Source: Chiridota heheva
Taxonomy: Eukaryota; Echinodermata; Holothuroidea; Apodida; Chiridotidae
Direction: 5' to 3'
NCBI GenBank assembly: GCA_020152595.1
Contig: JAIGNY010003040.1
Coordinates: forward strand, 374,294 to 438,293
Length of the DNA: 64,000 bases
Shown here: piece by piece, positions 3,277 to 50,740 of the stretch
How positions within the stretch are numbered: the first letter of the stretch is position 1
How the letters are laid out: every line of letters begins with the position of its first letter
Notes under the pieces: model-generated
What the model saw: only the letters and a program-made list of their open reading frames with translations
Database searches by the model: none
What the model was told of the DNA's origin: nothing
Made by a program: the position numbers and the translations under genes

Positions 3277-4318
3277 TGCACCCTCCGACACCCGGGATAT
3301 GTGCGTCGATGTTCGTGGGTGCATCATACATTAATTCTCAATGACGCACCCCTGTGTAGTATTTTTGACTGACAATTGCCTACTTTTGACACACTTTTAG
3401 ATGATTTTTTGACGGACATATTGGTGAAAGTGACTCACAATGACTGTCCTTGTGACGCACCTGATAGGAATTATATCTATATTGATAACCATAAAATAGT
3501 TTAAATTCCACCAAAACTAGACAATTTAGCAAAGATTCATGAGATACTGTAGGTTCTGACGACGTTTGACCTGAAAATTTAAATATTTTAAATTTTTTGG
3601 TGTATTTCTCCTGATAAAATGCACATAAATATTATTTATGAATTAAAATAATTGGAATGTTAAAATAGTCTTTTAGAAATTCTACCATTTTTAATTTTTG
3701 CAGTATGCAAATTTATTTCTTATTGAATGCCAATTGCCTGAATAGTATCTGATTGTGGTCATGGCCTGTTCATTGCCATAAGTTGCATTTTTATAATACA
3801 TACACCAATACTCAGAGGTATCCCTTACAGAAATATTAGCTTGCAGCAAGCTTTTTGCAAGCTTAGGGCATGCTTGCGACAAGCTAACAATTTTAGCTTG
3901 CACAAGCATGCTGCAAGCTTGCAGCAAGCTAGTATTTGGAACAAATTAGCTTGCGCAAGCTAGCAAAAACTATTAGCAAGCTTGCGCCAGCTAGTAGAAC
4001 TGTTTGCAAGCTTGCGCAAGCTAGCAATTTTTGTATGCTCACTTGCGCAAGCTAATGTTGTCTTGCTCAAGCTAATGTTGGCTTGCGCAAGCTAATGTTG
4101 GCTTGCACAAGCTAAAATTTCTGTAAGGGATTGGGAGCAACACATTGTTGTTTGATATAGGTTTTAACACAACTGAAAGAATGACGCACATTGATGCACC
4201 TATTTCTCTTTGATTGACTGACATCTGATGTACAATGACGTACATGGCATCAAAATTTGATTGTAATTGATGAAACATTGACACATATATCCCGGGGTCA
4301 GAAGGTGCGTCATACAAT
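3277..4318. mobile_element. Foldback-like element hosting the 3832-4129 insertion
   Basis: GCACCCTCCGACACCCGGGATATGTG at the left (from about 3279) is mirrored by CACATATATCCCGGGGTCAGAAGGTGCG at the right. ATGACGCACC motifs recur in both arms. The CCCTTACAG element is nested inside. Confidence 0.55.
3832..4129. mobile_element. CCCTTACAG-ended foldback element with AGCTTGC-GCAAGCT palindromic core
   Basis: The ends CCCTTACAGAAAT and inverse CTGTAAGGG are flanked by AT on both sides. The whole interior is made of variants of the palindrome TAGCTTGCGCAAGCTA, in the right half arranged as a 20-bp tandem repeat of four units. No coding potential. Confidence 0.8.
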
Positions 4319-4595
4319 TGTTAGCTGCATATTTTCTTATTTTTTATTTCCAATTTTCAAAGAGGGGGTGGGCGCTGTGGAAGGGGTACAGTGTGAAGGG
4401 AAATGGTTATCAGTAAGTAATTTCCAATTTGATGCTGATAGTGTACAGTACATGTTCATAATATTCAATAAGTCAGTTATCTTTTATATATATTTCCATA
4501 TATTCTTGTGGTGCGCAAACACTAAGAGGCTGGTATCAGAGCAGGGATATGGTCTAAATACATCTCTGATCCGAGGTAGAACTATTGTATATCTA

Positions 4596-4845
4596 GAGAC
4601 AATTGTATTGTCTGCGAGTCTGGGAGTAAAGCTTCCCTAAGAATAAAATGGGTGATTGGATGCATAATTGGTGAATGGATTAGGGGGTTCAGAAGGATTC
4701 AGAGGGATTCAAATTTACATGACATGAGACAGATTATGTTACACAAGCTTGTAGTCTCCTTGTCCAGTCATTGTTGGAAGGACATGAATAATTAATTTGT
4801 GTGAATTATCAGAGAGCTTCAAACAGATGGGTACCTGGTTTATGT
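4596..4845 (+). repeat. Dispersed duplicate, copy 2
   Basis: Direct-orientation partner of 2930-3160, sharing GTCATTGTTGGAAGGACATG and CAGAGAGCTTCAAACAG. The pair could be the two halves of one long element or an old tandem duplication around 3277-4318. Confidence 0.7.
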
Positions 4846-5345
4846 CTGTAGATTAAAATGAGACCTGAAAAAATGATTTGCTCTGATAACCACTGAACTA
4901 TATTGCTAATTTCTTATTCTTTCCTTTATGTTTTTCACAAGTGGTGGTGAGGGGTTGAAGGGGAATTAGAGGGGGAGGGGGGTTGAAGGGGAATGGGGGT
5001 GAACTTCGAAGTGCCTAAAAAAATAAATCCATGGAGCAAGTCTAATACTTTATTTGATGGATACTGACTTATCAAAATGTGAATATTAAAATATTAAATA
5101 TATCAGATGTACTTTTACTGCAAAATGTAAATAGTTTCAAAGCTTCCTAGTGGGGACAACATATCACTAGGGGCAGGTATACTATGTACTGTAGGTCCAC
5201 ACCAGGTACAAGCATAAGGGGGCACTATATAGGGACCGAGAGTGGACAGTGTTAATTCAATATAAACTATTTATTTTTATTTTTAAAAAAAGGATAAATT
5301 GTATGAGTTATTATGTAAGTCTCCTGAATGTTTCTTGTAGAATTC
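4846..5345. other. No gene seen; G-rich patch
   Basis: AT-rich DNA with a G-rich patch at 4941-5000 (GGGGGAGGGGGGTTGAAGGG and related). No conserved frame, splice-bounded exon or repeat family recognised. Confidence 0.4.
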
Positions 5346-5900
5346 TGGTTTACTCTAGTTACACTTCCAGTCGATGACATTTAATTTTTTCAGTTTAAGA
5401 AAATGAATAATTATGAGCAAAGAGAGGATATCATGTCTCCTAAGGAACACCTCCCCAAAAAAAAAAAAAAAAAGACGGGGAGATATTGAATTTTTTTTTT
5501 TTTTTTTTTAACTAATCTGCTTTTAATAAATCACACTCACAGCATGTTTACTACCACTTCCAGCCCATAACATTTTATCATTCCAGTTTAAGAAAATAAA
5601 TAATTATGACCAAAGAAGAGATATCATGTCTCCTAAGAAATACCTCTTCCCCACCCCACCCCCACCTCATAAAAAGAATAATATTAAAGAAAACAATTGT
5701 CACTAATCTGCTTTTAATGAATCACAGAATGTTTACTTCCATTTCTAGCCCATGACATTTTATTTTTCCAGTTTAAGAAAATGAATAATTATGACCAAAG
5801 AGAAGATAACATTCTCCTAAGAAATACCTCCCACTCCCCACCCACCCAAAAAAAAAGATATTGAAGGAAAAAAAAAAATGTCACTAATCTAAATCACTGC
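5346..5900 (+). repeat. Three tandem units of about 185 bp
   Basis: Each unit runs from CAGTTTAAGAAAATGAATAATTATG through GATATCATGTCTCCTAAG, a C/A-rich stretch and CACTAATCTGCTTTTAAT. Homopolymer A and T tracts differ between units. Confidence 0.8.
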
Positions 5901-8626
5901 ATGCTTACTGAAATACCTCCATTATCACAGCAATTAAGCAAATAGATTCATTTACACTTTCTTTAACTTTCACATTTAACTAAGAATTAAAGTCTCAAAT
6001 TAGCACCAGTCAAACAGAGCCATGAGTTAATCACACACAGACACACCTCACCACAAAGGCGCAAGAAGCTGCAGTTTCCTGACAATGCAAATATCTGCAG
6101 AAGCTGAAACAATGTCTTGAGTGGGTGTCACAGGGGGACAAAAGACGAGTGTTCCTTTGTTTGAGCTGGAAATCAAGGTAAATAAGCCTAATGGTCTCTG
6201 TGTGTGGTAAGCAGGAGTCTCCATAATATGAGTCATAAAGAATACTTGTGGTATAACTCCTTCTGAGGGATGGTATGACAATAATAAATGTTTTGGTAAG
6301 TCACCTTGGGAATCACCTTGGTGACCTCAGATGAAGGGAGGGGAGGGGTGGATTTACTTCTGGCTTTAAAAAAGATGAGTTGTTTACCTAATAAATTTGG
6401 ATTAATCAGTCCAGATAAAACCCTCAATTGGGAAACTTTCAAGGGCCCAATTTAGGGGATGATGTATTCAAGGAACATGCCACTTGCAGTTTCATGTCAT
6501 AATTGCCACTTCTTTGTATGTTGCCTTTTTTCAGTCACTAGCTTAAAGTTTACATATACTGTACTGAAATGTTTCCCAATCTTGATTATAAAATAAAGCC
6601 GAAGCTATTTTAAGAAATCCAGTGACTGTTTTTAAGACTACAGACAGAGGTCAAGTGAGGTCATGTTTTTTTATTTGTAAAGAAGAAAATCTTTGAATTT
6701 TCAAATGTTAGCTGTCGAATCTAATGCATATTCACTGTAAGAGAATTTCCCCCCTAACGACCCATCTTTATTTTCCCGCTCACGAACAATCTTTATCTTT
6801 TTCTCATTATGTCCCTTTAGCCATAGTTATTTGCCAGCTTATATCCTAGCAGCATTATTATTCAGTGATTACTCCTCCTAGTGATATACTGTACTTATTC
6901 ATTCATGCAAATTATCTCCTCCTTCCCTATGTATGGACCATAATGACACCTTTACAATGTACTTACTATTCAAATAACACACTTCACTGACTAGCCAATT
7001 CCTCACTTTCTTCCTTTCTTAATGTTTTCACTTGGTTTTATAATTCTGTTCAGTAAAGTTGCATCTGTTTGTGATTTTGTGTTAAAAACATGATTGAAAG
7101 TTTGAATTTAAATTTGTTGTTTGCTGTTTTTGTTAATAAAGTGTAATATTCCATGTAGCTCCCCACCCTAGCTTCCATCCTGACAATGTGAGTTACGGAG
7201 CCTACATTTACTAACATCCTTTCTAGGTTGTTTATAAGGTTTTCTAGTGTAGTGGTTAAAACTCCCAATTGACTTATTATAGCAGTGTATGACTGTCAGT
7301 GGTATGAATTAATAATCGAGTTCCATTTTGAGTGTCTATTTTACAAGACAAAATGACTCAGGAGAGAAAATGTTAAGGACTTCAAATAAAAGGGATTATA
7401 AAGAAATGAAGTGGTACAGTTGTTGTGGTCGTGAGAACATAAGCCCACAAAGAAGACACAAAGAGACATTATCAAGTGGATTGAGCCTGTTATACAGGTA
7501 CATACATGTAGTATTCATGACTACATTTCCAAACATTCTCATTTCTCAATCATATTTATTAATCTATTCTGCATAAATATCACATATTTTAACAAATATA
7601 TCAAAAGATACTTAAAAATACATTCATACACAAAGCATGAACTGTCTTTTCATTGAAACAAAACCGATTTTTACAATGTTTTGGCAATTTTTTCACAGAG
7701 ATTTAGATTTTGATTTTTCATGAAACATGAGTCAGACCGAAACCGTGGTTTCGCGGAACCGGTTTGATTTACGAAACTGGTAGACTGTGCAGGCTCAGTC
7801 CTATTTTGGGGGTCTAAGGTAGGTTCTCAAAAGTGGTGTTTCTCTTGGACTGTTAATTCAACAGATTGGATCAAATCTTGAATGCAGTATACAGTTGGTT
7901 GGTTTACCAAGGTTTATACGCCCAATACTTCCATTGAAGTATTTATGTCAAGACGCCCATGACCATTTTATCAACCAGTCGTGGAGCACTGGTTGGAGAC
8001 CCACTGGGAATCAAAATAAGAGCTCTCCATGCTTTACAGGTACAGTACATGACAGCCTGGCAAAAAGATAGGTAACTCTTCAAGATAAATGAATATCAAA
8101 TTCTGAGCAGAATAGTCTTTAAATGATCAGAATAGCACTTTTTTTTTTTTTAGTTATGACAAAAATATTGCAGTCAATCCCCAAACTCTGAAGAGTCAGT
8201 CCTTTTCTTCTGTACATATTCACACCTATCCGGATTTATGAATATATAATGAGTTTAAACATGCCATTTGCAGATGATAATTTCATGGTTAAAGAATGGA
8301 TCAATGAAAGTCATTTTTGCAAAACTTTTAGTTAAAGGTTGAATAATTATATTCATTGGCTTTTGAAAGTTACCATTGATTGAAAAAAGGATAAATTTTA
8401 CAGACAAAAAGAACACAACTCAAAAATTTACCCGATTAATTTTTCCCAAAGGATGTAGATAATCATTCTCGCAACAAAATGATTTTTGATTGTGTGATGT
8501 ATAATTTCCTTCTACACATCTTTCAAATGATATTTAATCGCACAACCTGCTAAAACACTCAGGAGCATGGCAAATACAGACATATTCTTAGGCCAGTGTA
8601 AGTACGGCAAATGCGCTACTGCTATT

Positions 8627-8665
<39 letters not shown>

Positions 8666-9441
8666 TGTACCCATATGGAGTCATGATTGCAAGCTTAGCT
8701 AGCCTAATGTATGCTCAGTGAAAAGGATAGGCTAAATGTATGACCATGATGATGTCACAGTCTGAGGTCACCAAATATTGTGCAATTTAAGCTAATTAGG
8801 TCTCAAAACTAGACAATTTTTAACCAATTTTGATGTGACTTTTTGCTGCTTGCAAAGTTTTTAGTACAGTACAGTTTAATTCAAATTTTCAAACCATTTA
8901 AGCTCATGTTTTCAAGCTGGTACCTGTCCATATACTGTACTGTATTGTACCCATATATTGTTCAGAATCTTACACAAAACAATGAAAATAGCAAAAGTTA
9001 ACACACAGCTTTATCTCAAAGAAGCTCTCCATCAAATAGCAAGGGTGTATTTTTTGCTTCTTAGTCAAAGGGAAACACATTGTTTATACTCGATAGTGTC
9101 TACGGGTGTTGAAAAATTACTTAGTAATCATATTGAGTGGTTGAGTCTCATGTCTCATTGGTGTTAATATGAGCAAGACTCTACTTCTAATAACAATTCT
9201 TCTTTGAACTTCCCCCTCCCTCCAATTCACATTTTTGTAATGTCTGGAAGCCTGGAAGGATCTTGATCTGATTATGATTTTGGAAAGTTGTACCACACCC
9301 ACTCAAAATTGTTCTGCAAAAGACAATTTCATCATTTTTAATGACAAAAATTTAGAATAGAAATTAAAAGAATTACTTGAAGGTTTTGAGCAGTTTCCCC
9401 ATTTGTTCATCTAAAGGAACACGATATCAAAGTTTCTTTAC
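5901..9441. other. Long non-coding stretch; TA microsatellite
   Basis: Nothing conserved was found in either strand. It contains a (TA)n tract at 8627-8664. Frames at 6048-6442, 7050-7268 and 8958-9167 are short and resemble no family. If the SAPCD2-like gene has downstream exons they should lie in or beyond this region on the - strand, but none was recognised. Confidence 0.4.
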
Positions 9442-9743
9442 CAGAGGCGGCGGGGCTGTGGGATTCATCCACCGTGGGATTCATCCACCGTGGGATTCAT
9501 CCACCGTGGGATTCATCCACCGTGGGATTCATCCACCGTGGGATTCATCCACCGTGGGATTCATCCACCGTGGGATTCATCCACCGTGAGATTAATCCAC
9601 CGAGATTCATCATTCATTTATCCCCCAATAATCTAGGTGAACATGTGTTATCATATTATCCGACCTGACTATCCCCTTCAAAATTGTTGTCACATGACCT
9701 CATAAGCCCTTCCCCCAATATTTTAAACCCTCCGCCGCCCCTG
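9442..9743. mobile_element. hAT-like MITE carrying a minisatellite
   Basis: CAGAGGCGGCGG at the left is mirrored by CCGCCGCCCCTG at the right, 302 bp in all. CAG-starting ends are typical of hAT elements, but the 8-bp duplication expected of hAT is not convincing (TTCTTTAC against TTTATAGC). Half the element is a 16-bp tandem array. Confidence 0.5.
9457..9600 (+). repeat. 16-bp minisatellite, about 9 units
   Basis: Near-identical units of GTGGGATTCATCCACC repeat head to tail; the last two units are diverged. Each unit is itself partly palindromic (GTGG...CCAC). Confidence 0.95.
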
Positions 9744-10255
9744 TTTATAGCTCTGTTTACATTTCCATCCTCATTGTCTTACCAGTAACTAGGCCTACCA
9801 GTAACCACTAATCCCACCACTAAACTAATCTTTAGTTTAATACTACTGTATAAACATTGCTTGTTTGGTCTTTCCCCTTTTAAATCTTTGCACCACTTTG
9901 GATGGAGCAGCATTTGACACAGGATGAAGTTTGTGTTGTTTCCACAAATTAAATAGGCAATTGGGATTAAGGGAGATTTTATTGAATTTTGACAACCTGA
10001 AAATGAAATGCACCGTTTACACAGCTGCAAGGTACTAACTTTAGCTGCCTCCCCCTCCCTGGAAGAGGAAAATATACAGGATTTGACAGTGATAGTGAAA
10101 TGATGGCCATTTATATATTTCAATTTTTCATTATTATTTTTAATTTCATTTTTCCTATCCAGCAAAATACTGTAGGTTGGGGTATTCTTCCCCAGACCCC
10201 ATCTTCTCAGTGATGGGGTTTGAAGTTGGAAGGTAACTAAATCTCCTAAGAATAC
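9744..10255. other. No gene recognised
   Basis: A 128-codon - strand frame (9779-10165) has no recognisable domain, is not bounded by convincing splice sites and has AT-driven composition. It could be the 3' flank or an intron of the SAPCD2-like gene. Confidence 0.3.
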
Positions 10256-10290
10256 ATATCAATTCAATTCAACAACATTTATTTTAGCTT
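10256..10290 (-). repeat. LINE-type 3' tail (TTGAA repeat) with AATAAA on the - strand
   Basis: Read on the - strand, AATAAA (10278-10283) is followed by GAATTGAATTGA. The same AATAAA plus TTGAA-repeat tail ends LINE fragments near 35225 and 50735. It could be the 3' end of a LINE inserted just beyond the SAPCD2-like exon, or it could supply that gene's polyadenylation signal if the gene has a single coding exon. Confidence 0.45.
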
Positions 10291-10574
10291 AACAAAGGCA
10301 AACTCACAAATAAAAAAAGATTATATTTTAATGATAAACTACATGTACAAAACAGTAAAAACTTGAATTTACAATGAACAGCACCAAAAGAAATAAGATT
10401 GAGTGTGGTTGACAACAAAAATACACTATTTACTTAATATCATATATCATAAATCATATAGTAATGATTTTACACAGTAAAATTTCAAAGAAAATATGTA
10501 ATTTTTACACAAAAATGTGTGGAATATTTAAATTGCTGTTTGCCATTTTAAACAAGCTGTCAAAAAATGATCAA

Positions 10575-11387
10575 TTAAAATGGGAACCAACCTTTTGAAT
10601 TTGGAGATCTGCTTTTTTCTGCTGGATGTTGAGTAACCTGTGAATGATACTGATAAATCCTAGAATCTTCGTAAATAATTTTACTTTTAGGGCTCAAGTC
10701 TTGGGTTCTTGGTGACGTTGGGGTGCGGGTGTTGCTTCTGCTTATTGGACGTGATCCAGGTGATGTTATCCCACGAGCCCGTTGTCCATTTTGCCAGTTT
10801 TTCAATTCAGCTGAAATTTCAGCTTTATCCCCCAAGCTATGGCGACCGCGATGAGGCTCTCTTTTAGTAGGTTCATTTCTTAAAGCATGCATATTTTGTG
10901 GGTTGTTTTTCTCCTTTAACGGAGGGGATTGATTTCTGTCTATTTGAACTTTGATGTAATCGTTTGAACTAGGCGGTCGGTCGCGACTTTTCCAGCCGAT
11001 GCCACCGCGAAGAATATGAGGAGCACTTTGCGACGATCGCATCGGATGAACGTTATTTGGCTTCACCGTAGCCTTGTTAGGTTGTTTTTCCTCCTTCCGT
11101 CCATTCTTATCTTTATTCTTTTGAAGAGTCAACTTTAGCGCCGCGCAAAATAACTCAAATGTAAGAAAGCCATTTTTAGGAGCAACTTGTCCGAGAGAAT
11201 CAAGCACACCAGTCGGCAGACCGTTGATGCCTTCGCCTTGCCAACGAGACTGAATTTCATCAAGCGGTACAAATCCGTCATTATCCTCATCCAAAATATC
11301 AAAGAGTATTTTCAGGGAATTCACAAATACCCGTGGAAGTTCTACTTTTCCGGAGGAAGAAACGAATAATTCGTTTAAGCCTGACAT
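10575..11387 (-). CDS. SAPCD2: Suppressor APC domain-containing protein (SAPCD2-like), first coding exon
   Basis: This - strand ORF encodes 270 residues from the internal ATG at 11387; the frame stays open upstream to 11507, but homology begins only after this methionine. Residues 17-89 closely resemble the N-terminal domain of vertebrate SAPCD2, sharing LP-F-SL--LFDILD, EI-SRWQG, LP-GVL, QVAP and G-LTFE-F. That protein is linked in vertebrates to spindle orientation and cell-cycle control. The loop D33-x-D35-x-D37-G38 with E44 is a textbook EF-hand calcium loop. The rest is a basic, Ser/Pro/Arg-rich tail with RGRHSLGD, similar to the RRRHTIA element of the human protein. The C-terminal coiled coil of vertebrate SAPCD2 is absent. 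The last codons may read through a possible donor (AAAAG then GTTGGT, exon end 10592), so the true C-terminus may lie in unseen exons to the left. Family confident; 3' structure uncertain. Confidence 0.82.
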   Translation of the reverse strand: MSGLNELFVSSSGKVELPRVFVNSLKILFDILDEDNDGFVPLDEIQSRWQGEGINGLPTGVLDSLGQVAPKNGFLTFELFCAALKLTLQKNKDKNGRKEEKQPNKATVKPNNVHPMRSSQSAPHILRGGIGWKSRDRPPSSNDYIKVQIDRNQSPPLKEKNNPQNMHALRNEPTKREPHRGRHSLGDKAEISAELKNWQNGQRARGITSPGSRPISRSNTRTPTSPRTQDLSPKSKIIYEDSRIYQYHSQVTQHPAEKSRSPNSKGWFPF

Positions 11388-11700
11388 GGTGATTCCAGCA
11401 CAAGTATTGTAAGTGCACCGTAAAGATAAGAGCACAATCTTTTTAAAAACTGCGCAGTTTTGTGAGGCCAACAACCGCTCAATAATCCTTTTCGGTGGTG
11501 TGTGCAACTGTGCGGATGTTGTCCTGATTCGTTGTTTACACTCCGCATGATTGCGCCTGTTGTACTAGCGGAAGAGAGAGCGCTAAACAAATTCACTAGA
11601 TCGTGAAAAAGTGAACAAAACTCATTTATGCTTAGGCAACGAGATAACGTGAGAAGTACTAAAAGAAGCACATAGCGTAAAATTTGAGTAGCGCTACACA
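11388..11700 (-). promoter_or_regulatory. Probable 5' leader and promoter region of the SAPCD2-like gene
   Basis: This stretch upstream of the SAPCD2-like start is richer in CpG than the surrounding DNA and is free of recognisable repeats. No TATA box or defined start site could be assigned. The ORF continues open upstream of the chosen ATG as far as 11507, so part of this may be coding if translation starts earlier. Inference from position only. Confidence 0.3.
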
Positions 11701-11729
11701 AACATTTTCAGATTTAAAATAGTCTCAAG

Positions 11730-12805
11730 CAGTGCCGGATTTTATAAGGACAAGTAAACTTCGGGCCTCGCATCAAAAGGGACCTCGCATCAAAAGGGAC
11801 CTTGCATCAAAAGGGACCTCGCATCAAAAGGGACCTCGCATCAAAAGGGACCTCGCATCAAAAGGGACCTCGCATCAAAACGGACCTCGCATCAAAAGGG
11901 ACCTCGCATCAAAAAGGACCTCGCATCAAAACGGACCTCGCATCAAAAGGGACCTCACATCAAAAGGGGCCTCACATCAAAATGGGTCTCACATTAAAAG
12001 GGGCCTCCCATCAAAAGGGACCTCACATCAAAAGGGACCTCACATCAAAAGGGACCTCACATCAAAAGGGGTCTCACATCAAAATGGGTCTCACATTAAA
12101 ATGGGCCTCACATCAAAAGGGGTCTTACATCAAAAGGAACCTTGCATCAAAAAAAACCTTGCATCATAAGGGGTCTTACATCAAAAGGGGTCTTGCATCA
12201 AAAGGGGCCTAGCATCAAAAGGGGCCTTGCAAGGGACCTCGCATCAAAAGGGGCCTGACATCAAAAGAGACCTCACATCAAAAAAGGGCTAGCATAAAAA
12301 GAGAGCTCACATCAAAAGGGTTCTCGCATCAAAAGGGATCTCGCATCAAAAGGGGCTTCGCATCAAAAAAGGCCTCACATAAAATGGGCCTCACATCAAA
12401 AGGGGCCTCACATCAAAAAGGGTCTTGCATCAAAAGAGGTCTATCATCAAATGAGGCCTTGCATCAAAAGGGGCCTGACATTAAAAGGGGCCTCGCATCA
12501 AAAGGGGCCTCGCATCAAAAGGGACCTCTCATCAGAAGGGGCCTTGCATCAAAAGGGGTCTTGCATCAAATGGATTCTCATCTCACAAGAAACCTCACGT
12601 CAAGAAGTCTTGCATCAAAAGATACCTCACATCACAAGGGGCCTCACATCAAAAGCCTCGCATCGAAAGGGGCCTTGCATCAAAAAGGGTCTCGCATCAA
12701 AAGGGGCCTAACATCAAAAGGGGCCTTACATCAAAAGGAGCCGTGCATCAAAAGGATTCCCCTCCCCCTCCTCCCCCCTCCTCCTTATATTAAGGCCCCT
12801 GGCAG
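11730..12805. mobile_element. Possible hAT-like element containing the 17-bp minisatellite
   Basis: CAGTGCCGGATTTTATAAGGA just left of the array and TATATTAAGGCCCCTGGCAG just right of it are weakly inverted; both contain a TATAAGG-like block. The arrangement parallels the 9442-9743 element. The match is imperfect. Confidence 0.3.
11766..12760 (+). repeat. 17-bp minisatellite, roughly 55 units
   Basis: Variants of ATCAAAAGGGACCTCGC. The left third is homogeneous (GGACCTCGC); the rest diverges to GGGCCTCAC and GGTCTTGC forms with a few broken units. Long apparent frames in several phases are a by-product of the repeat. It starts about 380 bp upstream of the SAPCD2-like start. Confidence 0.95.
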
Positions 12806-14499
12806 AATAGAGAAAGGGAAAAGTTATCCATGGAAAGGGATTAACTTGTCTGGTGGTGTGAGTGGCAAAAAACCCATAAATTTTCAGGTTGTAATAAGAA
12901 AAATTGTACTGGTAACTTCAAACCATGCTACTAGGTGCAAAATGTTTACTATTTCCACAGTAAAATTTCGAATTTCATGTGAATTATAGGGAGGTATGAG
13001 ATTCATGTACCTTTGACTTTATGTACTCGTGATTTTAAGGATATCTTACAACAATATATAATATAAGTTCACTTATCTAGCTTTCTCAACTTTCTCAAGC
13101 AGACAAGTCACACTTTGAGTCTTTTGGCAGATGGGAATTTCATATACAGGTATTAGGAGTGGTATCAAATTCCCCCCTCGCCCCCATTCCCACCTCCACC
13201 CCCTCACCCAACACATACACTATGTAAGTTTTACCTCTGTTTTCCTTTGTTTTGAGAAATTCAAGTAGGTCCTATATAGCTGTATAGTTGCCACTTTCAA
13301 ATAGAGATGTATTTCTTCAGGTGCCCCAGCTCTTAGTTCTTATGCAAGTTTCTATACTCCTGCTTTAATCCCTTTAAATGTTGGTTATCCTTAATTCAGC
13401 GCAACATGTTGGGATTTAATTTAAAATTAAATAGCTTTGAAAATTATGAACAAGATATGCTCAAAAGTAGAATGACACTCTGCAAATATAATATAGAATC
13501 AGGCATATTTAGTGGGGTTCCAGGGGGAAACTTTTCCCACTGGCTAAATTCCGTTTGTAACATGTAAGTACCGGGATCAATAAGGTACCACTTTAGACAT
13601 CACTTTAGATACTAGTATACAATATGCTATACATATTAGGGAAATAAACTGTGAAAAAATGAATATAAGGTTAAATATCGGTCAAATGTGCTGATGACTT
13701 TGTTCCTAGCGAAATAATATCTCAGATTTTCAGGAAATTTCTTTAAATTTTTTATTTTTAATTTTCTTCGACCCCCACCCCTCCCAGCTCCCCGACTCCA
13801 GTAGCGTCAGTGGACCCTTTTATTGGGGGTAATTTTACAACCGACGAAAGAGTTCGACGCTACCGACAAAAATATATTCCACATTCAGGGCCCTCATTAC
13901 GTCAGAATTTATGAAGAAGAAAAAAAGGTCATCAGTCCAAAATCGCTGAACGGGTGCCATAATATTATTTTTTTCAATCTGTTTGGTAAAGTTTTTATTG
14001 TCTTTCGTGGCACTTTTACCGACGCGGACCTTGATTTACCGACTGGTCTTCAATTTTACCGACAGCTTTACCGAAAGTGGGTGGTGTAACACTCCCATCC
14101 ACCCCACCCCCACCCCCAGTATTTATGCCTCTGCCTATTACAGCCTGGGTACAGTCCTTTTCCTATAATTACTGTATTCCCCTGGCACCGAAAGCTGAAT
14201 ACGCCATTGTGCGGAAGCGATGGTCCCAGAGTAGTGTGAAACGTGATGCTTTAAAGTTATATATGGACAGGTAGAAATGTTAGATTCACCATTACAAACT
14301 TTAAACTTTAGAGCTGATGAGTCTTTCAATTTCATCAAAAGCCCGGCATTATAGTTTCCGTGTTCTGGCTAATCAAAGTTTGGAGAAAAAAATTAATACA
14401 AAGGAAAACTTGGGAAATTTAGGAATAACTTTTTTCCAGCTTACAGTCTTAATAGAAAAATATTTTTTCAAATGCTCTCTTCCTCATTTTGTTTTTTAT
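12806..14499. other. No gene recognised; TACCGAC-rich patch
   Basis: 13830-14075 contains six or more copies of TACCGAC in an otherwise open + frame of 88 codons that resembles no protein. C-rich, CACCCC-like tracts occur near 13180 and 14095. Possibly an old repeat. Confidence 0.35.
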
Positions 14500-17400
14500 T
14501 GTCTTCAAGTTCATATAAAATGAACTTGCTTAATCAATGAGTTAATGCTTTAACTCCTTCCGTCACCGGATAAATGCTGGCTTTAATTTAATTTCATACG
14601 CTCAAAGTTATCTGTTTCTTTTAGGATAGATATAATTTTACGTGTGAAAACTAATTTTCTAATCTCACGTCTAAAGGAAACAGCCAATCAGAGTATTTTA
14701 GACGTATGCAATGGAATCATTACGACGTAACAAATTATTGTTACGACGTAATAATTGATTTTTCTTGATAAAAACGTCTAAAAATTAGTTTTGACGCGTA
14801 AAATTATGTCTATTCTTACATCTAAAGAAAATAGCCAATTAGCAACCTGTTTTAGACGTATGAAATAAAATTGTTACGACGTAAGAAGTGATTGTTACGA
14901 CGTAGGAAGTGATTTTTCTTCGGCGTAACATTAGGAGACGTTATGAACCGCATGGCCAACCATATCCGAATGCATGATAAAGAACGCTGTTTTTGTATGC
15001 CAATTGGATTATACTATCCCGTTTGGAAGATCTCCTGCACTTATACCCAAATTGAGGTATTGCACTCGTAGTTGATAGCTCGTTTGGGTTATAACTTGCG
15101 TTTACAAACTAAAGCTATAAAACTAGAATAGCCTGGATGCACTATATATCCATATAACGCAATTGAATAACCCAGGCTATACAGTAACAGTACCTTTAAA
15201 TCACCAGAGTGTTAATAACCAGAGAGCCTAAAATAACAACGTTTCAAACTGCAGTAAAAATAACAGCCTCTGCTCCAGTATTACAATTTGTTTTTTTACA
15301 ATAAGTTCTTTTGTTTGCATATAGAAAAGTGAGTCTAATAACTGATGCATGCATAAAGCAGGGAGTTGGAATAGAAAGTCAGGTTTATCTGTGATAGGTT
15401 TCTTAAAGGATTCAGGTGTAAAGTTAGTCCAACAAATAAAAAATTGATTAAATCTGTTTAGTTATATTTCGCATATGATTGCCACTTGGAAGTTAATTTG
15501 CGTGATGCTATTATTGATTACTTATATTGTGATTCATTAATTGCGATAATAAATTATTTGCTAAAAAATGGCTTTATATTTGCAATATGAGGAAAATATG
15601 CCTTATAGTTAAAAGCATGTCTAATGTTGCAACTTGCAAGGATGTAAAACCCGTCTTGATTTTAATACATACAGTATTTTGCTGAGAGTGTCTGTTTATG
15701 ATATCAAGTTCCCTCAAAAGGAAACATTGTTATTCAAATTTGCATCATTGCTGTTGAGGCAGGTTTTTGTTGGCTTACTTAAATTAGAACATCAATGATG
15801 TAGTAGCTCAACATATATTTTGGAGGTGGGTATAAATATGTTTTTGTGAGTGGTTTGTTAATTTGAGTAGACTTAGGTTGTTATGAGTACACATCAGTGC
15901 TATCAGAAGTGTGGGGGAGGGGCAGATGTGGGGTTTCAGCCCACTCAATAATTTGCAGAACTGTAATAAAAATTGATGCCGTATTTTCACTTTTTGTCAT
16001 TGCAAATAAGACAACTTAATCAAACTGCACCCTGGCTTGGTGACCCACCATACAAATGTGCACGCATATTACTAATGACTTTAGACCACTGAGCCTAGTG
16101 CTTTTATTGCTACATACTGTGGGACAGATCCCAAATGGGATATTAAGCCGAATTAGCGCATGTGGTGTCAGGCTATATTTTAGACTCGAACCAATGAAAA
16201 GAGAGTTTTCTTTCCATCAGAGATATTTGGTGGTATTTCCCGAGTCAAATGTTATAATATACGCTAAATTCATTCGGATCGCTCCGAGCGACAACCAAAT
16301 TTTGGAGTCATTTTTGATGAGATTTGGAATGCAAAATTCTGCAAAACTATGCACTAATGCAATTTTAAAGTCCTCTTTCATATAAAACTTACTAACTTAA
16401 TTACTTTCTAAATTAATCCTTTAAGATACCCGTCATAGATAACGGTGATTTTATACATCAGTTTTTTAGAGGAGTTTCATCTCCATGCAGGGAGTTGTTA
16501 TTTGGATGCAAACAAAAGACTCCCTGTGAACAGGAAGTTCTGCCAGGCGATGCTTGTGATTTGAAAGGTGTTTTTCATCAGTGAGGAGTCTATTGAGGCT
16601 ATTTTAGCCATTATTAAGCTTTTATTAGTTTTTAAATGCAAGTTATAGCCCAAATTAGTTATCAAATACAAGAGCTATTCTCAATTTGATTACATATTAG
16701 GAGAAATCCCAAACGGGATATCAAGCTGATTAGCATATGTGTCCAGAAGGTATTTTAATGTTCCAGCCAATGAAAACATAGTTTTATTTCAATCGGAGAT
16801 ATTCGGTGGTATTTTCCAAGCCAATGTTATTGTATATGCTAATTCATTCGGATTGCGCCGAGCGAAATCCGAACGAAAATCGGGATTTTGGGCTAGCCTC
16901 ACATAAGCTCAAAATCCCTTAAAGGGATGTTGAACTAATAACAGTTTTCACATATTCAAACGATATTAAAAGCTTTATTGCGCAGTGGGGCAACTGGAGT
17001 CCTGGGGGCCCGTGAGGATTTTGGCGCTATGCAGCGCTGTTGGAACTGCGGCGGCAAGATGGGGGGCACTGCCCATTGGCCTAAAGTAAGAAGAGCAGGG
17101 GGTGCCCTTTTGAAAAAATTTGGCTGACCGGGCAGAAGGTGCCCTTTTAGTTTTTTTAAAGTTGAGGGCGGACCGAGTTAGATGCCCCCTTTTGAAACTT
17201 ATATGAAATTACTATAGGTCATTCTTGAAGCTTAAAAACAAATAGAAATCCATTTACTCACAAATATTACATAATACATAGAAGTTGTTACTGAAATTAA
17301 GTATTTATTTGACGCAATTAAAGAGTGTAATTTTACCAAGGACACCGACACCGAGGCCGTGGTGGGATGTGCATGGCCCCTAATAATTTTATAAGCAGCA

Positions 17401-17890
17401 ATTTTCAAAATAAGTCTTTTACCTATTCACCCGATGGGTAATTGTCAACATTGGTCCTGGCTTCCCAATATCAAACCTATATAGCGGGATTTGCCTACCG
17501 AAAGTGGGGTGAAGTCAAAAGTGTGTGTGTGTGTGTGTGTTGTGTGTGTGTGTTGTGAGGGGTTAATTACAAAATCACGCTAAAATACAACAAATTACCA
17601 TAAATAAATATCTATTTGGACAAAAAGTGAGGGTGGAAAAAGTGCTCTCTTGCTTTCCTCGAATCCCGCCTATGCTCAAACCATATAAGTAGGAATCATG
17701 GGGCCAGGAGGCAAAATTCCTCCACTTTTTCGAAAACTGACAAAAGTGCTCCTTTTGTTAAATGAAAAGTGGCACTCATTTAATGTCCAAGAAGCGCCCT
17801 AACTTTTAACTACCCACCAACAAAAACAGGCTTATGCCCACCTCAAAATATATGTTGAGCTACTACATCATTGATGTTCTAGTTTTGTTA
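14500..17890. repeat. Large inverted-repeat family, right copy, with internal insertion
   Basis: This is the counterpart of 1-1310 in opposite orientation, but split at about 15785 by an extra 1.15 kb that itself contains inverted family segments (16100-16940). AACATCAATGATGTAGTAGC (15790) and its inverse (17860-17880) bound the right half. The left part, 14560-14950, has two about 180-bp units with TTAGACGTAT and TTACGACGTAA motifs. No gene recognised. Confidence 0.65.
17520..17557 (+). repeat. TG microsatellite
   Basis: (TG)n with two TT-type interruptions. Confidence 0.95.
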
Positions 17891-19035
17891 GTCATCAGTT
17901 CTGATAACCATCGTCGCATTTTTAACCAAAATTGTATCAACAACCATGCAAAGTTACAAAATTAACACCGACAGACACCAACTAAATTTAGACTCTTGTA
18001 TAATGTTGTCAATAACACAAATGATTATATTAGAATATATTCATCATATAACGTGACTAGAAATATTATCTGCATCATTTTGAAGCAGGCTATCATCCAG
18101 TGGCGTACGGTATATTCGGGGTAGTATACCGTTCTGACCATTGTGCCAGTGGCACAAGGGCCCCATGCCCATATTTTTTATTAATAATTTTGATACTTTA
18201 GCATATACCTGAGCCCAGTCATTTGATGAAACCCTAAAGCATCCAGTCCGAATCTCTGTTGCTCTGAAACTTTTTCTGTCGGAGAGATTGGTGAATTGAA
18301 TCAATTTGTTTTATTGATTGAAACCTTATAGTTTTGAACATTTTGAAGTATATTTTAAAGGAAACGTTTAACGTTTTGACATGCTATCTCAGTAATCTAC
18401 GGACGGGTACAATAGTTTTTTTAATCAACCACCTACCGAACAGTTCGGGAACCTCTTCAAAAAGTTGGAAATCTCAAACTTTTTGGAGATGACTGTTTTG
18501 TGTTTCAACTACTTGAACGCATGATTAACGCAATTTTCCTATAATCTTCATGTAAATAAACCTTAAGGCCTAGTAAGTGGTCTCCTTCGTTTTAGCCACG
18601 TGACTGCAAGTAATCGAAGAATTCAGGTCAAGGTCAGGATTTTCCGCGCCGAAATCTAAACAGTGAAATTTCTGGGCGATACATTTGCTGTTTGTATATT
18701 TACTCTTAAAATAACCGAGTACTCATATCCAACGTGGTCCCTAAGCCTCGAACAAATTTCCAAACCGTTTTAAGTTTGACCTACACAATAAGTCAATGAA
18801 AGAGCATAGGGGCATTGTGGGTAATATCGCGTAATGACGGCCTTCATAGCTTTTCTATCTCCAAGTTCTTGGAGATATTTCATCTCCAACTTTTTGGAGA
18901 TTTTCCTGACTGCCGAAAAAAGCATTCATTTATGATTTTAATAGTCTTATATAGCATGTGCAATTTTCAAGATATGAGAAATCAAAGTTTAATTTGTTTA
19001 ATATTGCAAAATGTGAGGTTTACGAATAGGAGAAC
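17891..19035. other. Non-coding with short palindromes
   Basis: AACTTTTTGGAGA and its inverse TCTCCAACTTTTT recur at 18460-18500 and 18858-18910, giving short hairpins such as TCTCCAAGTTCTTGGAGA. 18640-18660 has a small CpG cluster. No gene recognised. Confidence 0.35.
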
Positions 19036-19037
19036 AC

Positions 19038-19467
19038 CTCTTACAAAATGTCCAGATCTGGCTTTAATAAAGTTTATATATGGGTAAATAAAGTTTATAT
19101 CTGGGTAAATAAAGTTTGATCTGGCCAGATAAAGCCAGATAGAAACCTTCTTTAAAGACAATTTGATACATAAATAAAATTTGATATGGCCAGATCAAGC
19201 CTTGGCTAAAGTCAATTTGATACGATACACAAATAAAGTTTGATCTGTCCAGATCAAACCAGATATGGATATTATAGCTGGCCCAGTTCCAACTTGATCT
19301 GGCTCAGATTAAACTTGATTTAAAAACTCCAGATCAAGTTTGATCTGGCCAGATCAAATTTGAATTTATATCTGCCCAATTCTTTATCTGGCCAGATCTG
19401 GATTTGTTTAAATTCCAGATGTGGAATTTATATCTGGCCATGGCCAGATCTTGAATTTTTGTAAGGG
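19038..19467. mobile_element. CCCTTACA-ended foldback element with CTGGCCAG palindromic core
   Basis: The left end CTCTTACAAAA and right inverse TTTTTGTAAGGG are flanked by AC on both sides. The interior repeats GATCTGGCCAGATC and half-sites; one perfect 20-bp palindrome is TTTGATCTGGCCAGATCAAA. Ends match the element at 3832 but the core motif is unrelated. Confidence 0.8.
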
Positions 19468-19650
19468 ACCTCAAATGCTTTTATTTTTCTTTGTATTTCT
19501 TTCTTTGATTTAAGACCTTGAACATAATGAAAATACTTTCTTCAGCTTGAGGTTGGTTGGGAGTATATCAAAGGGGTTCTTCATTAGAATTATCTTCCCC
19601 TTTTCAAAAAGAAATGGCAGAGGGTCAAAACACAATGGATTTACATAAGA

Positions 19651-23809: not shown

Positions 23810-26800
23810 GTGAGTATCTATTTTTGTCTTCGTTTTGTCACTTCAAACTTTAGTGTTGTGGTCTGAGTACTGTACTGGTTTCACGAAAACATAAAGTACT
23901 ATATCATCATCGATCAGTCATACTGACTATATCTTCCAATTCTCCCCTGAGTGTAGAATTCAATTTTCACCTCAAAGCCAATGTAGATTGCAAATAGATT
24001 TAGATAAAATACTTAACAGATGTTCCCTCTACTTTTTCGATAAACCAATAATGACAAATTAACAAGAATCCTAAATGAATCTTATGACTGTCCAAAGCTC
24101 GCATGGAGTATCTTTCATTTCTCTCCTCGTCCGTATGCGATTGTACAAAACTTGAGAATTGGAAGATACACTGTTGCGTGGATAGTCTTACAAGATAAAA
24201 GAAGGATTGCGCGGCCATTGATATTAGAGAGGGGAAATCAGGGTAAGTGGAATACATCTGACTAAATAAAGTCGATTTCTTTCATGTGTAGCACAAGGGG
24301 ACCTAATTCTCCCCTTTCCCATATACAGCACAATGCAAAAGGGGAGAATTCTAATTCTCCCCTCTTCCATATATACTGCAACACAAAAGGGAGAATTGTA
24401 ATTCTCCCCTTTCCCATATATGCTGCAACACAAAGTTATATAAACGGAATAAACTGCAATGCTCCCTTTTATTTGGCAGTTTGGCTTTATTCCATATATT
24501 TGTGATGGTTCTTGTAGCCCTATTAAGTATACCACAGAAGACTAACTGATTGTTACTGTAAACAGATAAAGTTATATTAACGGAATTAACTGCAATGATC
24601 CCTTTTATTTGGCCTTATTCCATAAATATTGTATATTTATGATGTTCTTGTAGCCCTTTCAAGTGTAGGGCCTACCACAGGTTATTCAATAACTGAACAA
24701 AAGACAAGCTTATATGCAGTTCAACCATGCGTTTTCATTCACGTATAACTCAACGGGACCTAACTTTCTCCATTCCCATATACAGCGCAACACAAAAGGG
24801 GAGAATTCCAATTCTCCTCTTGAGGGGAGAATTGGAAGATATTGCCGTCATACTCAGCTTTAGTTAAGAAAAGTTGAGCTCCCATTGATCCCATGTACAC
24901 TTCATAGACTAACAGCATAATTTGGTTGTCATAACAGTCATTTAGATAAATAACAAATACCTGATCATTAATACCTTCTTTTATTTTACAGATTGTATAC
25001 CCCCATTTATTTTTACTTGCTTATAAGTTCAATTTTACACTTATAGATGGTGAAGAAAAATAGGGCCACAATTGAAGTGGCAACCATATTGGTTTATTAA
25101 TGTTAGGCTGTATCCCTGACCAAGAAACTTTTAAAAATTGCAAGATAAGTTTCTTAACAATCCTTTCCGTGCAAATAATATTCAAAAACTTTCCTCGTCA
25201 GGTGCCAAGTCAGAGAAAGTTTGAAATCATGTTAGACATAAATGAATAGTCGTTTGTTTACAACCTCTATCAATTTCATTGACACTTATTAATAAATGAT
25301 TAAATAACAGTCAGTATATTGTTGGAAGGATATTTTCATCCCTAATTTTGGATTTGTTCATGATCAAATCTAACTAGTTCGATTTATCTTGATTTCACCA
25401 ATAAAAAAGGACTGGATTTTCATTCTAAAGGCACATGGGATGAGTCCTCAAAAAATGTCTCCAAATTTTCCCCAAATTTTGCACCTAAAATAATTTGTTC
25501 ATGAGCAAATGTAAGTAACTAGATTGAATATGATTTCAGTAAAAAATTACGACTATAATTTTATTTTTACGGCACTTGAAAAAAGTCCTAAAAAAAGTGT
25601 CTCAAATTTCTCTTTTTTTGTTGTTGTTGATGGTGAGGAAATACTGTTGCCTCTTTCTTATTAATGGGTATAGACCCAGAGAATGATGGGGATATATACC
25701 CGGGCCACTCTGGTAAACTCCACTTAAAGTTTTTTCACACAATAAAGTTGGAAGAATGTTCATTTATTCCCCATCTTTTTTAGATGGATTTACGCAGCTA
25801 GTTTTAGGATGTACAGTAGAAGCTTGGAGTGTCGCTTGGAGTGTCATTCATTGCAATTAAATTACAACATCACTATTTGTTTGAATATAGATTACTCCTA
25901 TAAAAGTTGAAGAACAACTTTTGTGGGAAAATGATGAAGCAGAGGTTCGCATGTATCGCTGTCCATTGATCACCTTCACCCCTAATGGCAATTTACTGGT
26001 TGTAACAGAAGGAAGAAAAACATCAGGAGGAGATGCAAGTTCAAAGTTCATTGCAGCTAGAAGATCAGAAGATGGAGGTGCATAATCATGTTTCTTTAAT
26101 GATAAACCAGGTTTTAATTTTCTGAATATTTTTATGGACTTTGCAATATGACATTACTTATTTTGATAGTTTATCTTTTATAAATGAATACTAATCTTTT
26201 TAATAATTTATTGTAGTATATTACCCATTTTTTTTTTTATTGTCTCTACTGTACATAGGAAATTGCTGAGCAAAGGTTAAAGACTTTTAATATCTGCAAA
26301 TTGTGAGTGCCACAACACATAATACTGTTACCAACAGTATCCAAAAAAGTCACCATTTGGCCAAGCTTGACTATGGCAATATTGTCTACTGTGTCGCTCA
26401 CAACTCATACCTCAACCACATCAACACCATCCAAAATGAAGCCCTCAGGCTTTGTCTAGGTGCCTACAGGACCTCCCCAACCACTAGCCTTCATGTTGAA
26501 GCCAACAACCTCCCCCTTCCTTTCTACTTAAATGTAGAAAGCTTAGCCTCTCCTATGCTTTCATAGTTCTCACCAACACCCAGAACCCTGTTTACAACCT
26601 CATTAGGTACCCCAAATTCTCCAGCCTTTTTAATAGGACTAAAACCCTATCCCCTCTTCAGCTTACGCATTAAATCAGACCTCTCCCATCTCGGCATCAA
26701 CCTCGCCACTCTCGGCACCTTCTCCTGGCCCACTTTTCCTCCTTGAGCCACCCCCTCCCTCCTATCCACCTGGGCCACTCCACTCATCACAAAACCCAAA

Positions 26801-29800
26801 CCCATTCTAACCATTTATACTGATGGCTCCAAGGAAGGCAACAAGACAGCTGCTGCTGCTGTCATCCAAGACATCATCATTCTCAAAACGCAGACTTCCC
26901 GACTACTCGTCCATCTTTTCAACCGGGGCAAAGGCCATCCTCCTTGCCCTCAACTTTATTGAGTACTCTCCGCTCAACCACTTTGCCATTTTCTCCGACT
27001 CAAAGGCTGTTCTTCTTTGCTCACTTTTAAATGGGATAACTTCACATCTCGCCTCTTTCTCCGAAAACTCCTTTCGCCCACTATCTGCAGGAAAAGTGTT
27101 TTTTTCTTCTGGATACCCAGCCATGTTGGCATCCTTGGCAATGGCAGGGCTGATGCAGCCGCTAAGCTTGCCCTCAACCTCCCCCTACTTCTTTTCCCAA
27201 AACCCTCTTTGACATCAAACCGCTTACTACTTCCCTTCTCTGTGACTGCTGGCAAACCTCATGAAACTCCCAATTTGATAACAAACTCCACGTCATCCAG
27301 CCCACCATTCCGATCAAACCACCATCAACAACCTCTCTGGTATCGACAACTTTCATATTACCCATCTTACAATTGGTCACACCCACCTCACTCACTCCCA
27401 CCTTCTTATTGGCTCCCCCTAATCCCTCTGCAACAATTGCCATTACACCCTTAGACATGTCACTGGTGACAAATTCTAGTGTATTGAGATCCGTTTTCAT
27501 GTTATGGATCTTGAGTTTTGAGACCCTTTTGTTAAAAGAGCTAACATACATTTAATTTCTTGGAAACATTTTTCTCTTTTGTGACTTCTGAATTTTCTTA
27601 GCACTTGGTCATCTGTCACCTATTACACTAATGGATATCAGTTTTAAATAGGCCTACTTCAAGCTCCAATTCACTTAAAATTTATGTTTCCTTCCTTGTT
27701 TCATTATCTGTGAGTTCAAAATTATTAGAAAAAGGTAATCTTACATATTTCTGGCTGAGATTTTGTTGAGGATTAGTTTGATGCTAAGACTTTTCATGCA
27801 GTGATAGGAACTAGAAGTTACCCTGTGGGAAATACAGTATCACAATTTTAAGGACCACATGCTCATCTAGGGTTAAAGCCGTTCTATGGATGTTACAACC
27901 AGTAATAAACATGCTAATCAACCGGTGTTGGGGAATGGGGAGGGGGAGGGGGATTATTCTACGCCATTGTCCCCTCTGTCTCTGTGTTTCTTGTAAACGC
28001 CTTTTTTTTTCTTTTTTTTTTGCTTGTGTATCATCAATGATATTTCATTTATAACACAAACTTTTTCCTACAGGCTATAACTGGAGTACAGAGAGATTCA
28101 TACATGATGATGGCTTCGTAGTTGATGGCGACAATCTTGGCGTCATACTCGTAGATGAAATCAACAAAGCAGTTTACGTCTTCTTCGTTTTATGTCCTCA
28201 CCATGTGGACTGTGACATATCATCAGTGATGTACATAAAGAGTGTGGACGATGGCATCACTTTCGGAAAACCTGTGAATGTTTCGGCTCAGGCGGGGATG
28301 AGAGATTTTGCTCCAGGTCCAGGCTATGGGATACAGGTAATTTAATGTGATGGGTGACTCACCATCGAGGCTAGGGGAGTAGGGGTGTACTCCCCCCCCC
28401 CCCTACCCTCAAATTCTTTTGGGGATAATCATTGTTTCTAGTGAAATATTGAATTATATGTACTGTATAATTGAAAGGATCTTTGATACCTTTCCTGCAG
28501 GCTTGGAAAAAGAGGTGCTACCTCATATTCCTTAAAATACCCATCTCTGATACCATGTAGGGATGTGAACGTTTACCCATTATTGTGTACACAATAGAAA
28601 ACATTGTTTACCATTTACAAAATTAATGCATCGTTTACATGGAAAAATCACCCTGAAAGTGCTCTTATCAGCTTCCCAACAACACAATCAAGGATCTTAC
28701 AATTCAAACTTAACAAATGATCAACAAAGGATTAATCCTATTTAATGCAGGAATAATGTAGAGGCTTTGGCTTGATTAACAATGCTACATTACTATTGTT
28801 AGGCAGAAATCTGAATTTTTACAAACTATAAAAGTGACCCAGAAATACATGTACAAAACAGCATTGAATGTTATTTTCACCACAAATAAATGCAAAGTTT
28901 ACCTGATAAGTCAAATAAATTGCACTAAAAAAAAGAAAAAAAGATTGTGAAATAAACAAACAAAATGTTTTACAGTTGGTGAGATTTTAGCATGGTCTGC
29001 AAACATTCGGCATGTGATAGTATTTTCAGCATGTGATCGTGTACACGATTACAAATTTAAAAGATGGATGGTTTATCATTTACTGAATTGAAGGATAATG
29101 TACATCCATAATACCATGGACAACAAAACTTGCCTTACCATTCCTTTGCCGTGTTATAATAAAAATCTAAACATCTTTAGTTGAATCTGCTGAGAAGCTA
29201 AATTTTTGTAAAGGAAGCTGTCCATTAACCCTGTTTGAAATAAGCAAGAAGAAAATGCAGAAGTGCTCGCTACGTTACTGGTAATTATGATCTACTTCAA
29301 GGCAGAAGTGCTCGCTACGTTACTGGTAATTATGATCTGGTTCAACGCAGAAGTGTTCGCTACGTTACTGGTAATTATGATCTAGTTCAAGGCAGAAGTG
29401 CTTGCTACGTTACTGGTAATTATGATCTACTTCAAGGCAGAAGTGCTCGCTACGTTACTGGTAATTATGATCTGGTTCAACGCAGAAGTGTTCGCTACGT
29501 TACTGGTAATTATGATCTACTTCAAGGCAGAAGTGCTTGCTATGTTACTGGTAATTATGATCTGGTTCAACGCAGAAGTGCTCGCTACGTTACTGGTAAT
29601 TATGATCTAGTTCAAGGCAGAAGTGCTTGCTACGTTACTGGTAATTATGATCTACTTCAAGGCAGAAGTGCTCGCTACGTTACTGGTAATTACGATCTGG
29701 TATAACGCAGAAGTGCTCGCTACGTACTGGTAATTACGATCTACTTTAACGCAGAAGTGCTCGCTACATTACTGGTAATTATGATCTGCTTCAATGCAGA

Positions 29801-49945: not shown

Positions 49946-50039
49946 GGAATAAACTTCCTCATAATTAACAGTGACAGACATTTAAAGATTAAAAAACAAA
50001 TGAAAAAAAGAAAAAGATTTTGAGCTGTCCACCCAGTTG

Positions 50040-50740
50040 TACATCACACATTTTGCATATATTGAAAATTCTTAATTGATTTCATTACTGTATGGTATGT
50101 TACATTATACAGTAAGTTGTTGCATTTACACAGTACTGGATAATAATTTCTATAAAAGAAAATTGATTGCTAGTTTCCGTTGTGGTACATTGAAACTCAT
50201 TGTACACACCGGAAGATATAACAACGTTGACTATATGGATAGGGTTTGTATATGTTGTAATATGAATGTCATAGATGATGAATACCATTTTCTTCTTGTC
50301 TGCCCATTCTTATTGATTAAGAGAATTTTACCACAGTAAAACGGCCATATTTTTTTTTTTTTTTTTTTTTTTTTGGGGGGGGTGGCATTTCCCTGGTTCC
50401 CTCTTTAAATATAGATAAACCAGAACACCCACTCCACCCCAACATAACGCACCTAGACAGGTTGAAGATCAAAAATATTTTGATTACAGATTCGAAGCAT
50501 AACTGTCATGTACTATATATATTTTGATCAAATATGCCATACAAACCCGTGGAAATCATGTTGCTGATTTAACATCATGCAACCATTTATCAGTCTATTG
50601 TTTTTCATATGTTGATTAATTTTTCTATGGATTGCGTTCCCTCAATTGTTACTGTATATCACTTGTTTGTTGTATTACGTTCTGTATATGTGTCAAGGGC
50701 TGATGGCCCAGTTTACCAATAAATTGAATTGAATTGATAT
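50040..50740 (+). mobile_element. LINE 3' fragment with cysteine motif and TTGAA tail
   Basis: The frame FRCGTLKLIVHTGRY, then RVCICCNMNVIDDEYHFLLVCPF, is a common C-terminal motif of invertebrate non-LTR elements (RCG...ETGRY...C-x2-C...DE-HFL--C). A T26/G8 homopolymer tract (50350-50380) interrupts the locus. It ends at CCAATAAATTGAATTGAATTGA. Confidence 0.65.

Follow-up and report, generated by a model that had tools for sequence, protein, structure and literature searches.

Two palindrome-rich elements of Chiridota heheva: probable non-autonomous CACTA-type transposons with a candidate BEN-domain partner

Two short repeats with similar ends and quite different palindromic interiors, which we call elements A and B, lie in the stretch of Chiridota heheva DNA analysed here (the window, which is the final 64 kb of contig C2971), and they raise the question of what moves them and what their palindromes are for. 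The genome searched for their relatives comprises 1.1 Gb in 3744 contigs. Judged by their sequence features, A is almost certainly a CACTA-type (En/Spm, TRC) element and B very probably another. With a probability of about 0.8, we propose that both are CACTA deletion derivatives moved in trans, and that a coiled-coil, BEN-domain partner protein works on their arrays like TnpA.

Ends, palindrome arrays and target duplications of elements A and B

Element A (3822..4129, 308 bp) is delimited by its ends, its genome matches and the flanking target duplication AT (3820..3821 and 4130..4131). A first-pass annotation made from the window alone had placed its right end correctly at 4129, and its start at 3832, 10 bp late. 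The left terminal repeat, CCCTTACAGAAAT (3822..3834, + strand), was read at A itself; the right one, ATTTCTGTAAGGG (4117..4129, - strand), is supported by the A-type end AAATTTCTGTAAGGG, which occurs 580 times in the genome against 4 times for the reversed control. Between them, a palindrome array of TAGCTTGCGCAAGCTA and GCTTGCAGCAAGC types fills 3835..4116, and the same dyads stand at both ends of a large element on the same contig, C2971:72339-91467. Element B (19038..19467, 430 bp, exactly as annotated) was delimited in the same manner and is flanked by AC (19036..19037 and 19468..19469). Its left terminal repeat, CTCTTACAAAAT (19038..19049, + strand), was read at B and in copies, and its right one is ATTTTTGTAAGGG (19455..19467, - strand); the B end joined to its adjoining array (GGCCAGATCTGGAATTTTTGTAAGGG, with at most one mismatch) was found 107 times in the genome, the control giving 0. 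Palindrome analysis assigned 19050..19454 to an array of TTTGATCTGGCCAGATCAAA type (GATCTGGCCAGATC arrays). The flanking repeats of both elements are corroborated by empty sites.

The terminal repeat starts with CCC and has the form CCCTTACA(G/A)AAA, both in A and in the majority of the B copies that were read; B's own left end deviates from this form (CTCTTACA). The CACTA pentamer is not present at the ends of the A/B family, which are CCCTT, and no member starts with CACTA. When A and B were aligned with each other, only the terminal 13-14 nt matched, the remaining matches having E values of 0.19 or worse, in agreement with the original description, in which shared ends and 2-bp direct repeats (AT and AC) enclose unrelated palindrome arrays.

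We then compared the palindromes with those in 1000 dinucleotide-preserving shuffles. Perfect palindromes of at least 10 bp number 7 in A (shuffle mean 1.43) and 8 in B (mean 0.70). Their coverage, 27% in A and 21% in B, was reached in 0 of 1000 shuffles. With palindromes of at least 8 bp, A's coverage was reached in 3 of 1000 shuffles and B's in none of the 1000. The palindrome-rich interiors described by the annotation are real, whereas its statement that the interiors consist almost entirely of palindromes overstates their extent; imperfect dyads cover more of A and B than the perfect palindromes do.

Genome searches gave at least 159 match rows for element A (40 scored of 2518 candidates) and at least 89 for element B (40 scored of 867 candidates). 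Wherever copies were read, a given end is accompanied by its array. Among 71 paired ends in the loci read, 39 passed an end-quality filter, and 26 of these are flanked by an exact 2-bp repeat (shuffled mean 4.66, maximum 12 in 2000); the repeat reaches 3 bp in one pair. Two of the pairs are internal look-alikes within full-length elements (L046, L064) and another is a duplicate locus (L035); without these three, the exact repeat is present in 24/36 pairs. The duplicated sequence is not fixed, since 12 dinucleotides occur among the 26 pairs, TA being the commonest (8/26).

Empty sites were sought by joining the flanks of each element. With one AT kept, the joined flanks of A span the junction in 38 of 42 rows at 76-90% identity; in the other four, two rows are A's own flanks and two end short of the junction. 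With one AC kept, those of B span it in 38 of 40 rows at 76-82% identity, the remaining two being B's own flanks. These empty sites are paralogous places that support the 2-bp duplications described by the annotation. One empty site of B lies in the window itself (49984..50066, - strand): it is a copy of the dispersed repeat that B entered, 73% identical and gap-free at the junction. An empty-site search with 36 copies returned 8 spanning rows among 321, mostly self or duplicate matches. At another locus (L015:1370-1520), TGTAAGGG is directly followed by CCCTTACC; these are two A-type ends in head-to-tail contact, an arrangement suggestive of an insertion of one element at another's end.

Full-length relatives and their second gene

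Animal CACTA/TRC elements are characterised by CCC ends and a 2-bp duplication (PMC4298943, PMC1636069), which pointed us to this class. The Transposase_21 profile found three places in the genome, all scoring above the cut-off, whereas a set of 14 control genomes gave no match. The proteins of C2971 (36.9 bits, Pfam cut-off 28.6), C1044 and C354 exceed the Pfam cut-off for this domain. Protein searches of the genome gave 56 and 61 match rows, for the best 75 candidates per search, and the 3' flanks were read at 19 transposase loci. At 7 of the 19 (C2971, C2584, C354, C3648, C2676, C1419 and C219), a CCCTTA(C/T)A end stands directly behind a palindrome array, so that repeated subterminal motifs differing between families, a CACTA trait, are found beside the transposases. 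C571 and C778 have such an array and no end in reach. C1044 and C265 carry ends CCCAAGAG with CCAAATGG and CCAATTGG repeats, and C3513 has TAATACATGTATTA three times with no CCCTTA(C/T)A-type end in reach. Neither end nor array was present in the 3' stretch read at C581, C3343, C256, C2670, C494, C1795 and C3693. A search for the 5' ends of C354, C571 and C2584 was unsuccessful.

In the full-length relatives, the arrays lie at the termini, right behind the ends and beyond the Transposase_21 gene, which does not fit the earlier view of the arrays as a freely diversifying cargo. The array types also differ from one relative to another, the C354-type dyad being CGAGCTCGCGCGAGCTCG. To judge from the loci read, different arrays belong to different full-length families and not, as first suggested, to one mobilising system. 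Separately, we observed a TAGCGTGTACACGCTA palindrome repeat within or near two CACTA loci (C2971:73589-75105 and 81837-82868; C354:63092-64559), perhaps as nested inserts.

The search for an autonomous element with the same ends, suggested by the annotation, succeeded for A's array type and failed for B's. The contig of the window itself holds C2971:72339-91467, which is 19,129 bp long, has an open transposase frame of 827 aa and bears A's TAGCTTGCGCAAGCTA array type; the same end and array were also found at C2676. It contains 11 AGCTTG-N0-4-CAAGCT dyads, of which 9 lie within 512 bp of its 3' end, several spaced at 28-31 bp, and two on the 5' side, 50 and 2414 bp from the 5' end. The left end of A matches its 3' end over 31 nt (93.5% identity), and A matches the 3' region of C2676 over 240 nt (72%, E 8.5e-30); its similarity to other array types is limited to 12-23 nt at the terminus and a single 27-nt match at E 0.14. 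A was presumably moved by an element of the C2971 type. A full-length element with B's array was found neither by motif in the 3' flanks of 13 transposase loci nor in the palindrome lists of the other six, and among about 100 listed of the 107 places of B array and end none overlaps a transposase or BEN place.

The relatives carry a second gene, upstream of the transposase and on the opposite strand. It begins with a short N-terminal module common to C354, C2971, C571 and C2584, after which come coiled-coil frames. Those of C571 and C2584 are near-copies, that of C354 resembles them over 74 aa (44.6%), and that of C2971 resembles these three in kind only. At C1044 the frames look similar on inspection, and the likeness of the N-terminal module there is likewise visual (tblastn E 6). 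Four loci yielded BEN exons: C2971, C354, C219 and C2676. By the Pfam profile, the C354 exon scores 26.2 bits, above the cut-off of 23.2, and two C2971 exons score 20.0 bits, below it; the best PDB match of the BEN exon is the BEN domain of NACC1 (E 7.3e-7). A genome search with the C2971 BEN exon gave nine places, four of which (C2971, C2676, C354, C219) lie within 9 kb of a transposase match, all on the opposite strand. No BEN exon was seen at C571 and C2584 in the stretch read, which may be too short. Some second genes hold stop codons, and therefore not all copies are working.

BEN exons are more alike within an array type (95% for C354/C219, 54% for C2971/C2676) than between types (38-44%). 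The C2971 transposase, by comparison, is 56% identical to that of C2676, which has the same array, and 57% identical to that of C354, which has a different one. A BEN-encoding CACTA element is not described in the titles and abstract openings listed, Repbase and most subscription papers lying outside that search. As far as literature searches reach, the arrangement of array and BEN gene is a new variant; A and B, taken alone, add new members to a kind already known.

ACATGT (NAC1) and CCAATTGG (Insv/Elba1) are palindromic sites of host BEN proteins (PMC7764960). As a side observation, terminal or nearby repeats of two further CACTA-type loci, C1044:1672884 onward (L042) and the C3513 3' flank (L062), hold these two motifs: CCAATTGG stands at the end of the C1044 element, and ACATGT lies inside dyads near the C3513 transposase.

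Proposed mechanism and rival explanations

The annotation knew of no named family with such a design. We find that it matches the CACTA design, which combines conserved short ends, divergent and palindrome-capable subterminal repeats and a duplication of 2-3 bp (PMC2613891, PMC1636069). For plant CACTA elements, binding of the subterminal repeats is reported for a second protein and not for the transposase. According to the model put forward there, the conserved ends belong with the transposase and the divergent repeats with this second protein; motifs and binding proteins have been suggested to diversify together, although these proteins have little sequence in common (PMC2613891). We propose that A and B keep the CCCTTACA(G/A)AAA(T/A) terminal repeat as a putative transposase cut site and, adjoining it, the subterminal dyad array. 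A Transposase_21-type transposase would act on them in trans, for B as for A, producing 2-bp target duplications of no fixed sequence. The coiled-coil BEN protein would take the role that TnpA has in maize En/Spm, binding the dyads as an oligomer and drawing two ends together, and it may also repress the element. That the arrays are protein-binding sites, as the annotation had supposed, is plausible and remains a prediction. Since palindromes are bound by several characterised BEN domains, those of NAC1, Insv and Elba1 (PMC7764960), the BEN protein is a candidate reader of the arrays, somewhat favoured over other proteins. Array and BEN domain would change together, which would account for different arrays behind nearly unchanged ends. 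We extend this to animal CACTA elements at large with considerable reserve: they might carry a coiled-coil BEN partner that reads the element's own array, and new array types could arise behind unchanged ends because the two change in step, like a lock and its key.

Several observations weigh against this reading. The exact 2-bp repeat is missing in 12/36 cleaned pairs, and the CCCTTACA end is missing from the stretch read in 12/19 transposase loci. C2971:72339-91467, the only element read at both ends, has unmatched outer 2-bp flanks (TA and AG), and its 5' end, TTTTTCTGTTTGGG, is 2 bases off the family end. Five other BEN places (C2262, C2970, C3511, C3176 and C3695) have no adjoining transposase match, and in the stretch read at C1044 a BEN exon is missing. 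Only four loci, of two types, underlie the pairing of BEN exon and array, C354 and C219 being close copies. The BEN domain of NAC2 is reported on a non-palindromic site (PMC7764960). Finally, B's array was not found together with a transposase or a BEN gene, and the assignment of B therefore rests on its ends, its duplication and its design.

A and B could be CACTA derivatives in which the transposase itself or a protein of the host binds the dyads, the BEN protein having another task such as silencing or transcription control. Animal coiled-coil BEN proteins are mostly chromatin regulators, according to the available literature, and binding of the arrays by the BEN protein is predicted here; however, the plant precedent of a second protein on the subterminal repeats argues the other way, and so does the BEN exon, which differs across array types while the C2971 transposase is about equidistant from that of C2676 (same array) and that of C354 (different array). 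We consider this account rather unlikely. Somewhat less likely again is the idea, taken from the first-pass annotation, that B has no family of its own and that elements of one end type cross-mobilise, with arrays swapped freely. It draws on the nearly identical ends of A and B copies and on the lack of any known transposase or BEN place among the B places listed; yet a B-type full-length element could have escaped the searches, limited as they were to the best 75 candidates per protein search, with the flanks of five BEN places out of reach, in part because contigs are short. Moreover, the array types readable beside transposases are stable over copies (C354/C219; C571/C2584/C778/C3648/C1419).

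ISL2EU, our first guess, or another PHIS element would share with A the 2-bp duplication and its sequence AT, and a THAP-domain frame lies in the window (45136-45603). ISL2EU differs by a fixed AT in A/AT/T, by ends that are usually GG and by a THAP transposase with a YqaJ-domain protein (PMC4482050), whereas here twelve dinucleotides are duplicated, AT in only 3 of 26 pairs, the ends are CCC and the transposases match Transposase_21. We dropped this candidate as highly improbable. The inverted repeats and repeated internal motifs of A and B also recall foldback, Helitron-like or plain satellite DNA without terminal mobility. These readings, contradicted by the regular 2-bp duplications, the sharp ends and the empty sites, can hardly be sustained. 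Foldback elements (FB/Galileo) make longer duplications, of 7-9 bp, and were rejected because duplications of 5-9 bp occur in 0/39 filtered pairs; Helitrons and Helentrons are not known to make a target duplication and were rejected because 2-bp duplications are present.

If A and B are CACTA derivatives read by a BEN partner, an odd repeat becomes a concrete two-component system. Several families coexist in one genome that have near-identical ends and BEN domains similar enough to be aligned, yet clearly distinct dyads, which makes the specificity code and its co-evolution directly testable, and solved BEN-domain structures make the question tractable. It can also be asked whether some animal BEN regulators derive from transposons; the two may share an origin.

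Other repeats of the window stand apart from A and B. Element C (23928-24842) had been described as a third member of similar palindromic design; we rejected it, because it has no excess of perfect palindromes, different ends (20-bp perfect inverted ends, ATATCTTCCAATTCTCCCCT) and belongs to a separate dispersed family, with at least 129 match rows in the genome (40 scored of 125 candidates). The THAP-domain frame mentioned above (- strand, Pfam E 4.9e-10) is a transposon or a host gene exon. The next densest palindrome stretch of the window, 46385-46850, is made up of a unit of about 116 bp that occurs four times in near-tandem and contains dyads of the AGCTGTTTAGCTGAT type. Tandem repeats at 11723-12989, 29244-29705 and 56765-58268 are open in several frames, with peptides such as QTCHASDMSCIRHVMH.

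Comparison with known systems

The animal TRC elements (SmTRC1, the Tribolium and Aedes TRCs, Spongebob/EnSpm-4N1_HM) share with the family studied here CCC terminal repeats, a 2-bp duplication and Transposase_21 (PMC1636069, PMC4298943). Palindrome arrays and a BEN gene are found here, whereas none is described in the text compared from these two papers; the terminal repeat of SmTRC1 is 54 bp long, against about 13 bp here.

Plant CACTA elements (En/Spm, Tgmt*) are similar in other respects: they have conserved ends of about 13 bp, divergent subterminal repeats that are palindrome-capable in Tgmt*, a second gene (for a DNA-binding protein there, a predicted one here) and non-autonomous deletion derivatives (PMC2613891). 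They differ by the CACTA pentamer and a 3-bp duplication, in place of CCCTT and 2 bp, and in our family the second gene, encoded opposite to the transposase, contains a BEN domain. As the pentamer is also missing in animal TRCs (PMC1636069), its absence speaks against plant-type membership only.

With NACC1, Insensitive and Elba1 the second gene shares the BEN domain. These are host regulators, while the BEN gene described here lies inside a transposon, where its product is predicted to bind the palindrome arrays.

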